From: an uncultured Porphyromonadaceae bacterium
Lineage (GTDB): Bacteria > Bacteroidota > Bacteroidia > Bacteroidales > Muribaculaceae
NCBI GenBank assembly: GCA_947177685.1
Contig: CAMWVE010000003.1
Span: 62,001-126,000 of the forward strand
Length of the DNA: 64,000 bases
Direction of reading: 5' to 3'
Positions 29,315 through 50,817 of the stretch are shown here, in pieces. The position numbers and the translations under genes were made by a program. How positions within the stretch are numbered: position 1 is the first letter of the stretch; every line of letters begins with the position of its first letter. The notes beneath the pieces were generated by a model that saw only the letters and a list, made by a program, of their open reading frames with translations, had not been told where the DNA came from and made no database searches.

Positions 29315-30157
29315 TCAGTCAACAATTTTTGATACAATTCCATCAGTGAAAATGATGACATAGTCATTTGCGTAAATCCACCTCACTCGCTCACCTGATT
29401 TTCGCTTGTTCATAGGAGGTCCGAGTAAAATAGTGACTTCATCTTCATTCATCCCCACGGCAACATCTGATTTTTTCTTAAGCAAATTGTAGTTTGGAGA
29501 TACAATATCCTTTCTGGTATTGACATAGTCCATCATATCTGAAATATATCCTGAACTCACTTTCACAAGTTCCTTTACCAATTCCTCATGGCGCTTATTT
29601 CTGTCAGGATGAAGTTTTTCCAGAGGTATTGTTCGCGGTATCAGACCCTTTTCACGAAAACGGCAGTCAATATCGAATATTTCAAAACACAAAGACCCGT
29701 CATCAGCGGAAATTTTTATATTGCATGTATAGGTCGTTTCATTTGACGTTGTGCCCTGTGTACGTTTGAAAATCATCACAAAGTTGTTATTATCATAATC
29801 TATTGACTCGAATCCTTCCTTTGCATTTTCTTTACGCTCAAAATTATTTGATGCGTACACCATTGCAGCCAAAAAAATCTGAGTATCCCTCATATCGTTT
29901 ACCTTACAGCAATCCTTTATTACAGCAATGGTATCGACAATGTTCCCATCATCATCCACGACAGGGCGTGACTCTGGATAAAACTGCTTGATACCTTCAA
30001 CCTCAGAAGGTAAACTTGAAGATGACACCCACGCTCCATAGTCAATTACAGAGCCGGGGTCCTTTTTTAACTTTATCTTTATTGCATTTACTCTTAACGG
30101 AACAAGGAAGATCAAAGCCAAGGAGAGTAAAATAATATGTCTTTTCATTTTCATCAT
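29315..30157 (-). CDS. Secreted hypothetical protein with C-terminal BamE/SmpA-like segment
   Basis: 280 aa from the first of three near-adjacent methionines (MMKMKRH); the signal peptide runs to LRVNA. The middle (about 100-215) has alternating strands resembling DUF4468-type Bacteroidetes domains. The C-terminus VGMNEDEVTILLGPPMNKRKSG then RVRWIYANDYVIIFTDGIV follows the BamE/SmpA pattern of a helix followed by strands. Function unknown; probably periplasmic or at the outer membrane. Sits between the Ig-like gene and the beta-barrel gene, all leftward. Confidence 0.7.
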   Translation of the reverse strand: MMKMKRHIILLSLALIFLVPLRVNAIKIKLKKDPGSVIDYGAWVSSSSLPSEVEGIKQFYPESRPVVDDDGNIVDTIAVIKDCCKVNDMRDTQIFLAAMVYASNNFERKENAKEGFESIDYDNNNFVMIFKRTQGTTSNETTYTCNIKISADDGSLCFEIFDIDCRFREKGLIPRTIPLEKLHPDRNKRHEELVKELVKVSSGYISDMMDYVNTRKDIVSPNYNLLKKKSDVAVGMNEDEVTILLGPPMNKRKSGERVRWIYANDYVIIFTDGIVSKIVD

Positions 30158-30222: not shown

Positions 30223-30897
30223 TTAGAACGCGTAGCCAACACGGAACATCAGATTGCTTGAGGTACCGGATGCTTCATCTGACATATCAATAAAACCGCG
30301 CTGATAGGTAATGTCGAAATTGAATTTCTTATACCATACACCAATGCCGACCTGCATGCCAGCATCGAATTTCTGGTAACCATCAAGTTCACTCAAGCTC
30401 CATGAGTCGCTGTCATCACCATGATGATCTCCTTCAAAATAAAACTTTTCAGTCAATTTTCCGGAGAAGTCATAGCTTACGAAACCGCCCAAATGACCGT
30501 CAAGTTTGATGTTGTCTGTCAGCGAATACTTGTAACCAATTGTAAACGGGCTGTATTTAACATTCCATGCAAGCAGACCTGCCTTCACGTCGCCGTCATA
30601 TCTATCTTCATATTCTGAAGAATAACCTCTTGTGCCAATACCGAGTTCCATGCTCCAATAAAGTCCGGATTTGCCAATGGCACGATTGAAGCCAAAGTCG
30701 ATGTCCATACCCATCTTTGAGCCTACCGAATCATAATTATCGGTATCCGTACCGGCAATATTATTAATCGACATTCCGAGTCGGGCATACCACACGGTTT
30801 CAGTTTTTGACTTTACAAATGTTCTCGATGAAACAACCTGTGCACTTGCGCTCACTGCCATAAGAGTTGCAGCAAGCATTAAAAGAACCTTTTTCAT
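30223..30897 (-). CDS. Outer membrane beta-barrel protein
   Basis: 224 aa with a signal peptide (LMAVSASAQ). Alternating aromatic/hydrophobic strands run the whole mature length and it ends RGFIDMSDEA...LMFRVGYAF, a terminal Phe as expected for BAM-inserted barrels. About eight strands are suggested by length, as in OmpX/OmpW-like or porin-family PF13568 proteins. Role unknown; its partners may be the secreted proteins on either side. Confidence 0.8.
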   Translation of the reverse strand: MKKVLLMLAATLMAVSASAQVVSSRTFVKSKTETVWYARLGMSINNIAGTDTDNYDSVGSKMGMDIDFGFNRAIGKSGLYWSMELGIGTRGYSSEYEDRYDGDVKAGLLAWNVKYSPFTIGYKYSLTDNIKLDGHLGGFVSYDFSGKLTEKFYFEGDHHGDDSDSWSLSELDGYQKFDAGMQVGIGVWYKKFNFDITYQRGFIDMSDEASGTSSNLMFRVGYAF

Positions 30898-30936: not shown

Positions 30937-31464
30937 TTATTTTTTATTCTGATTCTCATTTTTACTACCATTTGAGGATTCTCCTCCCGTGCCGATTGAC
31001 ACAGACGTGCGGGCATCGGGATAAACCACGCCGATCATGTCCACTTCATCCTTTGATGCAGGTCGGAAATTAGTATATTTAACCGGATAGCCCGACAGTT
31101 CAACCACCAGCATCTTGGAATCCTTTTCATATACATAAGAGTTAAATAACGGCTCGATGACAGCATCCGCATCCCCCTCCTGACAAGCGCGATAAAGCGC
31201 ACGGTTTTTGAAATTCTGCAATTCAAAATTGAAAGTCTGCTCCACTGATTTTATCTCAAAATAGTAAGGTCCGAAAGTTTCCCTACTTGTGGAGAGCATC
31301 TGCATGTCGCAAATCTGAGGTGTAACAAAAGTACGAACTTCCGGCACCAGTCGGCGTGCCTCTGATTCTTCCCATACCTTGACATTGTTATCCTTTTTTT
31401 GAGCCAAGGCACCAAATGCACAACCTGCAACAAGCAAGCCAGCAATAAAACAACATTTTTTCAT
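30937..31464 (-). CDS. Small secreted hypothetical protein
   Basis: 175 aa. N-terminus MKKCCFIAGLLVAGCAFGALAQ could be read as SPI (cut after ALA) or as a lipoprotein (VAGC, Cys15). The mature chain has an Arg/Glu-rich start, a mixed alpha/beta centre and a Ser/Asn/Lys-rich tail (GTGGESSNGSKNENQNKK). Not recognised as a known family. It is the first gene of the leftward secreted cluster, 66 nt downstream of the terminator of the candidate RNA at 31530-31831, so the RNA could be its leader. Confidence 0.7.
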   Translation of the reverse strand: MKKCCFIAGLLVAGCAFGALAQKKDNNVKVWEESEARRLVPEVRTFVTPQICDMQMLSTSRETFGPYYFEIKSVEQTFNFELQNFKNRALYRACQEGDADAVIEPLFNSYVYEKDSKMLVVELSGYPVKYTNFRPASKDEVDMIGVVYPDARTSVSIGTGGESSNGSKNENQNKK

Positions 31465-31529
31465 AGTGCTATGAAATGTGAGTTAACGGCTGAACGACTC
31501 ACAGTTCAACGCAAATCAGATTATTAAAT

Positions 31530-31831
31530 AAAAAAAGCGTGAGAGTCTTACCGTTGCTCGTCACGCTGATTCAAGGCATGTGGCTCGCCTTACTCTGTAT
31601 AACGAGCAACGCAGAAGCCCACGCCGATATGATTATTTCTTATATAAATTAAGAAACAGCATACCCATGAACATCTACCGTTGCATTCGTTCTTGACAGA
31701 GTGATTATTGAAATTGCCACATTTCTGAATCAGCCAAATAACGAAACGTCGATAAACGCTTAGAAACTATTACGGCACTCTTGCCGTTTTTCCCTCCCTA
31801 TAAAACCTTAAAGGTTCCATCGGCGAGGAAT
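31530..31831 (-). ncRNA. Candidate ~300-nt structured RNA (independent promoter and terminator)
   Basis: No coding potential. The transcript is bounded by a near-perfect Bacteroidetes promoter at 31838-31867 and ends in a rod-like hairpin followed by seven T on the minus strand (31530-31536). The 3' rod has nested stems: GCGTG with CACGC, a perfect 9-bp GTTGCTCGT with ACGAGCAAC (31602-31610 and 31553-31561), and AAGGC with GCCTT at the tip. The 5' part has ACGGCAAGAGTGCCGT and AACCTTTAAGGTT hairpins. It could be a stand-alone small RNA or an attenuator leader for the gene at 30937. Not tmRNA, RNase P RNA or SRP RNA by signature. Confidence 0.6.
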
Positions 31832-31837
31832 CAGCGA

Positions 31838-31867
31838 CAAAATTATGAATTTTTTATTATTTTACAA
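31838..31867 (-). promoter_or_regulatory. Promoter of the candidate RNA
   Basis: On the minus strand TTG (31865-31867) is followed after exactly 19 bp by TAATTTTG (31838-31845), matching the -33/-7 consensus and spacing. It points away from secG. Confidence 0.75.
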
Positions 31868-31929
31868 AATATCTTGATTTTTTTATTTGATTCATTCTAC
31901 TCTGCATTGTGAAATATCGGCAGGAATAT

Positions 31930-50728: not shown

Positions 50729-50735
50729 TTTTCTG

Positions 50736-50817
50736 TACCCGGAGCCGGGATCGAACCGGCACGGATTGCTCCATCGGTGTTTGAGACCGACGCGTCTACC
50801 GATTCCGCCATCCGGGC
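50736..50817 (-). tRNA. tRNA-Leu (anticodon CAA)
   Basis: 82-nt cloverleaf on the minus strand: acceptor GCCCGGA/TCCGGGT, D-arm with GGCGGAATCGGTAGACGC, anticodon stem CGGT/ACCG with loop CTCAAAC (CAA, reads UUG), a class II variable arm (GGAGCAATCC) and T-arm GCCGG-TTCGATC-CCGGC. CCA is not encoded. Confidence 0.97.

Follow-up and report, generated by a model that had tools for sequence, protein, structure and literature searches.

A family of folded multicopy RNA elements in Bacteroidota and its proposed role as an mRNA leader ahead of unrelated accessory genes

Locus and fold of the window copy

The window, i.e. the whole stretch of 64,000 nucleotides that was analyzed, contains a folded RNA element on the minus strand (31868-31530) which is followed on the same strand by three genes (Table 1). 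The sole known RNA gene in the window is a tRNA-Leu(caa) at 50735-50817. An earlier note had described the element as a structured RNA that has a promoter of its own as well as a terminator-like end, and this description is strongly supported, including by covariation in relatives. Direct reading of the minus strand confirmed the promoter with the 19-nt spacing that had been claimed (TTTG-19-TAATTTTG), from which transcription would start at about position 31832. A generic sigma-70 scan returned nothing; such simple promoter scans are useless for Bacteroidota. The absence of a reading frame over about 300 nt was also borne out, with zero ORFs of at least 60 AA on the minus strand inside the element, as were the T7 tract and the 66 nt between it and the ATG of the first gene. 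Folding of positions 31832-31528 yielded -112.8 kcal/mol compared to -75.5 +/- 4.8 kcal/mol for shuffled sequences (z = -7.8), and none of 100 shuffles was as good, so the stability of this fold is far beyond chance. The perfect 9-bp stem reported in the earlier note is exact. However, of the rod hairpin that was said to end the RNA, this stem is only the upper helix (H), and the longer hairpin is closed by helix X. The 5' domain, which reads GCAGACC..GCAGAAGCCC..GGGTGGG in related copies, has diverged in the window copy.

The helices were derived from an alignment of 58 full-length copies (A3), which were aligned by sequence alone. An unbiased mutual-information scan of this alignment placed O, K1 and I among the top 14 pairs. 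The seven helices O, K1, I, P1, K2, H and X are paired in 99.0 % of 2827 cells, compared to 84.9 % in shuffles and 31-44 % when slid, and none of 500 shuffles was as good. Compensatory double changes were found at 24 pairs of these helices, which provides the stem covariation in relatives that had been proposed as a check. Since K1, H, X and K2 were not part of the model used to retrieve the copies, their pairing is not a retrieval artefact. Helix O covaries throughout a set of 63 core sequences that were mostly retrieved by letters alone; K1 is not independent in this set because it helped to select most of the sequences. K2, which is formed by the P1 loop and the strand after H, is present in most copies and weak in the window copy. 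Since X encloses H, and each of the two crosses O, K1 and I, the RNA is pseudoknotted, and the plain minimum-energy rod was dropped for a pseudoknotted model after the covariation had been counted. The mismatch types in the helices are strongly skewed, with 109 G-U and 4 A-C, and therefore selection acts on the RNA of the element's strand rather than on DNA.

At the 3' end, helix X pairs GCGUGAG with CUCACGC, the latter preceding the U-tract, and its own partners outscore swapped ones with a z of about 10, or 13.2 in the phylum-wide set. Of the 10 nt that follow X, at least six are T in 104 of the 107 scored copies and in 85 of the 91 copies of the phylum-wide set, and in some copies the U-tract is interrupted. 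The hairpin of X and H together with the U-tract (31624-31530) has a folding energy of -42 kcal/mol. Another helix, Y, is formed by the strand that immediately precedes X and a segment located past the U-tract and ahead of the start codon. The z of own versus swapped partners for Y is 11.5, and 10.4 phylum-wide, where the controls gave 3.8 and -0.4. In most copies, the two helices X and Y have nucleotides in common and therefore compete, and a helix R competes with H (z 5.6). The pre-start hairpin of the window copy ends 27 nt short of the ATG. A second conserved element, TTGCGCCCGACACG..AGGG, is located between the U-tract and the ATG, immediately ahead of the start codon, for many of the window gene's orthologues as well as a few further genes (L180-L183, L185-L188, L190-L193, L053, L106, L112), and is missing in the window copy.

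Table 1. Features of the element and of the genes behind it in the window
Feature	Sequence	Positions	Strand	Basis or remark
-33 element	TTTG	31865..31868	minus	Read from sequence; 19 nt before -7 box
-7 element	TAATTTTG	31838..31845	minus	Read from sequence; Bacteroidota-type promoter
Variable 5' domain, two predicted hairpins	GGGAGGG	31772..31832	minus	Fold; diverged in window copy
P1 hairpin	AAGCG-UUUAUCG-ACGUUU	31744..31761	minus	Covariation set
Helix O, 5' strand	GCTGATTCA	31726..31734	minus	Partner 31565-31573; top covarying pairs, z 28.8
Helix K1, 5' strand	TGTGGC	31716..31721	minus	Partner 31579-31584; z 19, 99 % paired
Helix I, 5' strand	ACTCTGT	31696..31702	minus	Partner 31592-31598; z 21
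Apical stem-loop		31626..31665	minus	Length and sequence variable; short or absent in ~130-nt form
Helix X, 5' strand	GCGTGGG	31618..31624	minus	Partner 31537-31543; 100 % paired in 58 copies
Helix H, 5' strand	GTTGCTCGT	31602..31610	minus	Partner 31553-31561; 99.5 % paired, double changes at 4 pairs
Helix I, 3' strand	ACAGAGT	31592..31598	minus	Covariation
Helix K1, 3' strand	GCCACA	31579..31584	minus	Covariation
Helix O, 3' strand	TGAATCAGC	31565..31573	minus	Covariation
Helix H, 3' strand	ACGAGCAAC	31553..31561	minus	Covariation
Helix Y, 5' strand	GACTC	31543..31547	minus	Overlaps first base of X 3' strand
Helix X, 3' strand	CTCACGC	31537..31543	minus	Immediately 5' of T tract
U-tract, terminator-like end	T7	31530..31536	minus	After X; conserved in copies
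Pre-start hairpin	TGAAC-TGTGAGTC-GTTCA	31491..31508	minus	Loop GAGTC (31500-31496) is Y 3' strand; family-wide conserved pairing
First gene, 175-aa secreted protein		30937..31464	minus	ORF and domain search; no Pfam family
Second gene, outer-membrane beta-barrel (OMP_b-brl_2)		30223..30897	minus	Operon with first gene kept in other genera
Third gene, 280-aa secreted protein		29315..30157	minus	Domain search; weak BamE-like C-terminus

Distribution and relation to known RNAs

Judged from sequence comparison, the element belongs to a large family of folded RNAs of about 130-300 nt with many copies per genome in Bacteroidota. When eight genomes of the same genus were searched with BLASTN, dispersed copies of about 240 bp were found, most of which are preceded by a -7 box and followed by an ORF. 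In its own genome, BLASTN detected the window copy alone, and a covariance model was required to reveal the others. This model, R1, was built on the two arms and found further copies at C23:29505, C32:19322 and C5:77906, for a total of at least four. Within the genus, it gave 0-18 copies for each genome. In the same bacterial family, 135 of 149 genomes were matched, spread over 28 of 30 genera and with 1-18 copies per genome, as were 56 of 295 genomes sampled from the order. The weaker matches at the level of the order represent a short form of about 130 nt which keeps the conserved core and is missing the apical extension. The model for this short form, R2, matched 16 of 396, which is a lower bound since it misses the long form owing to the large insert. 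A weak short-form relative (L162) was observed on the window's own contig, outside the window, at G000:C3:17648-17797.

A core sequence pattern extended the distribution to named genomes of Bacteroides fluxus, B. acidifaciens, B. rodentium, B. xylanisolvens, B. finegoldii and B. heparinolyticus and one B. fragilis MAG, and further to Phocaeicola, Alistipes, Prevotella, Porphyromonas, Dysgonomonas, Flavobacterium, Chryseobacterium, Pedobacter and Fibrobacter. The copies in Bacteroides, Alistipes, Prevotella, Flavobacterium, Chryseobacterium, Pedobacter and Fibrobacter are of the shorter form. A MAG of the Muribaculaceae (L198) had the highest score among the named matches, which makes this the probable family of the window. 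The K1 partner is carried by 91 of the core-pattern matches. About a quarter of the exact-pattern matches were without this partner; those that were read look mostly like coding or unrelated sequence (e.g. L200, L202, L227) and were dropped. Carriage by phages and plasmids was limited to one exact-pattern match in viral contigs and one short unannotated phage match, with zero matches in plasmids.

The earlier note had suggested that the RNA could belong to a known Bacteroidales family, and scans of the window, the element and the best copies against Rfam speak against this. At the gathering threshold, the Rfam 15 scan of the whole window reported the tRNA alone. The proposed covariance scan of the element gave no family at gathering, known riboswitches included, and relaxed scans (E<=10 for the element, E<=1 for relatives and best copies) produced chance-level matches only. 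The view that the element is not a tmRNA, RNase P or SRP RNA was upheld, since none of these models reached the gathering threshold. The 6S model had no match in the own genome and matched in 5 of 14 control genomes.

The closest systems in kind are attenuators and expression-platform riboswitches. Among them, the c-di-GMP riboswitch GEMM-I is found before diverse genes. Such RNAs share with the element a 5' leader, a conserved tertiary fold, a terminator-like end, competing helices and functionally diverse genes. In contrast to them, the element is larger, has several crossing helices and an extra conserved pairing past the U-tract, and is associated with no common pathway and no Rfam match. 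Putative mobile promoters are promoter-bearing segments that are reused ahead of unrelated genes, whereas the reused unit is here mainly a deeply conserved RNA structure. The FopS/GibS paralogous sRNAs of Bacteroides (PMC11697453) are likewise a multicopy Bacteroidota family with a promoter and a terminator for each copy. However, FopS is described there as a single-stranded 5' stretch with one terminator hairpin that acts in trans, and it is in Rfam, whereas the element is a long, pseudoknotted leader tied to a gene. Membership in this family was rejected, as the element is folded throughout and much longer. The Bacteroidetes motifs of Weinberg 2010 (PMC2864571), i.e. 6S-flavo RF01685, Bacteroidales-1 RF01693, Bacteroides-1 RF01694 and Flavo-1 RF01705, are also structured RNAs from the same phylum that were found by comparative genomics, but they match no scanned copy even at E<=1. 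A literature search by name and by sequence letters, preprints and supplementary candidate-RNA tables aside, returned no description of the RNA. It could be included without a name in PMC8040213, which lists thousands of candidates. The kind of RNA, a structured mRNA leader with a terminator-like end, is already known, while the family, its architecture of crossing helices and its reuse before unrelated genes are new to the extent that this could be checked.

Genes behind the element

Most copies are followed on the same strand by a start codon 66-92 nt past the model end. A promoter-like box, TAn2-4TTTG, precedes 113 of 118 copies and is clustered about 90 nt ahead of the model start (random rate 28 % over the 220 nt scanned). 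Orthologues of the first window gene were found in 18 other genomes of the bacterial family, and the leader is directly ahead of the gene in 8 of these 18 according to R1 and in 4 more by eye. The leader recurs together with the three-gene operon in other genera, with flanking synteny absent where checked. Beyond this operon, the first genes vary widely: 92 proteins have matches in 41 Pfam families, with no dominant one (BspA-type repeats account for 10), and they include lipoproteins, restriction enzymes, a kinase, a sigma factor, regulators and modified-peptide precursors. As the downstream genes have no pathway in common, they do not point to a ligand. A defence-gene theme was rejected, as most first genes are without a PADLOC match, although a few restriction-modification genes occur. 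Visual inspection of the protein sequences revealed genes of the restriction-modification type right behind the leader in Fibrobacter and in further MAGs (L201, L203, L219, L225, L239, L284, L291). Several families repeatedly have a small XRE-like helix-turn-helix gene in first position (L107, L108, L171, L176, L195, L209, L269), and Cys-rich precursors with Cxxx repeats, which are radical-SAM target peptides with an apparent Tat-type leader, directly follow the RNA leader in L123, L131 and L136.

Pairs of leaders which are at least 78 % identical over the core have non-homologous first genes in 276 of 287 cases, and the similarity between them mostly spans from the promoter to just short of the ATG. 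Similar leaders thus precede non-homologous genes, and the leader is therefore a portable module. At a site linked to greA in three related genomes, the upstream flank and the leader are kept at 82-87 % identity; in one genome, several other genes directly follow the leader in place of the single lipoprotein gene of the other two, and the flank continues after them. This site (L318 G004:C29, L319 G007:C4, L320 G002:C7) could be a recombination hot spot. Together with the stable window operon, the replacement at the greA site shows that units of gene and leader can be stable and can also be reshuffled.

The dispersed copies, the similar copies before unrelated genes and the swapped cargo right behind a conserved leader at the greA site would also fit a mobile DNA repeat of the MITE or REP type, whose inverted repeats serve transposition or recombination and bring a promoter along. 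This origin is considered highly improbable. The mismatches in the helices have the strand bias of selection on a one-strand RNA, which is not expected for MITE or REP repeats, and a DNA inverted repeat has no need for crossing helices. In addition, the orientation relative to the gene is constant, and the copies are nearly absent from phages and plasmids.

Proposed function

The earlier note had left the choice between a stand-alone RNA and an attenuator. The latter part fits, with a same-strand ORF 66-92 nt further on and helix Y; the stand-alone part fits less well. The element lies between a promoter and a same-strand start codon, has the X/H hairpin with a U-tract, and is equipped with conserved competing helices (Y versus X and R versus H). 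It is therefore probably a 5' leader in the mRNA that carries 30937-31464 together with its two downstream genes, and a reused module in which X/H and the U-tract act as a conditional attenuator that is opposed by Y. The family, the helices, the RNA strand, the same-strand placement before genes and the modular reuse form the computed basis of this reading. Its own promoter and terminator-like end, the conserved helices and a multicopy distribution like that of the FopS sRNAs of Bacteroides (PMC11697453) could instead suggest a family of stand-alone, trans-acting sRNAs, in which the RNA of about 300 nt is the product and the adjacent gene is incidental. However, most copies have a same-strand ORF at a narrow distance, helix Y ties the RNA to the pre-start segment, and leader and operon are kept together across genera, so that this explanation appears improbable.

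With the attenuating leader as the preferred reading, each module would consist of a promoter, the folded RNA, the U-tract and the pre-start hairpin, ahead of unrelated accessory genes. The nascent leader would adopt a compact, pseudoknotted fold (O, K1, I, K2) around the long 3' hairpin (X, H), which together with the U-tract could serve as a conditional transcription terminator. On read-through, the strand before the U-tract would pair instead with the pre-start segment (Y), and Y, in competition with X, would set the start region for translation. Being located past the U-tract, Y cannot by itself prevent termination, and the competition of helix R with H gives no more than a hint of an antiterminator upstream. 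Termination, switching and the sensed signal are the parts of this mechanism that we infer.

The main rival is a translational switch, in which the U-tract is the loop of an H-type pseudoknot with stems X and Y upstream of the start codon that blocks or recruits ribosomes once it is formed. Shine-Dalgarno sequences are little used in this phylum. Both X and Y are strongly conserved and lie next to each other on one strand, and the spacing to the start codon is narrow. The interrupted U-tracts of some copies would be better tolerated by a structural loop than by a terminator, and thus count against attenuation. On the other hand, the run of T right after X in nearly all scored copies is stricter than a loop requires, and X and H with the U-tract have the shape of a textbook terminator. 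Overall, a translational switch is judged unlikely, although less so than an sRNA or a mobile repeat.

As a multicopy front end before unrelated genes, the leader probably represents a general on/off device for accessory genes. A more far-reaching reading, which is offered tentatively, is a phylum-wide general-purpose module, i.e. one pseudoknotted RNA that has been copied and recombined and that puts newly acquired accessory genes, such as those for surface proteins, lipoproteins, restriction-modification enzymes, peptide precursors and regulators, under one common cellular signal. If true, a major gut phylum would have an RNA regulon that is entirely missed by present annotation, with several to more than 12 leaders per genome, and many kinds of accessory genes, including those for surface proteins, restriction enzymes, modified-peptide precursors and regulators, would be tied to one RNA device. 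The element would then be a candidate for a new class of ligand- or protein-sensing RNAs and a tool at hand for controlling genes in gut bacteria, and it would offer a testable answer to the question of how Bacteroidota control freshly acquired genes. With the covariance models and the phylum-wide list of copies, this can be tested directly in culturable species, e.g. of Bacteroides.
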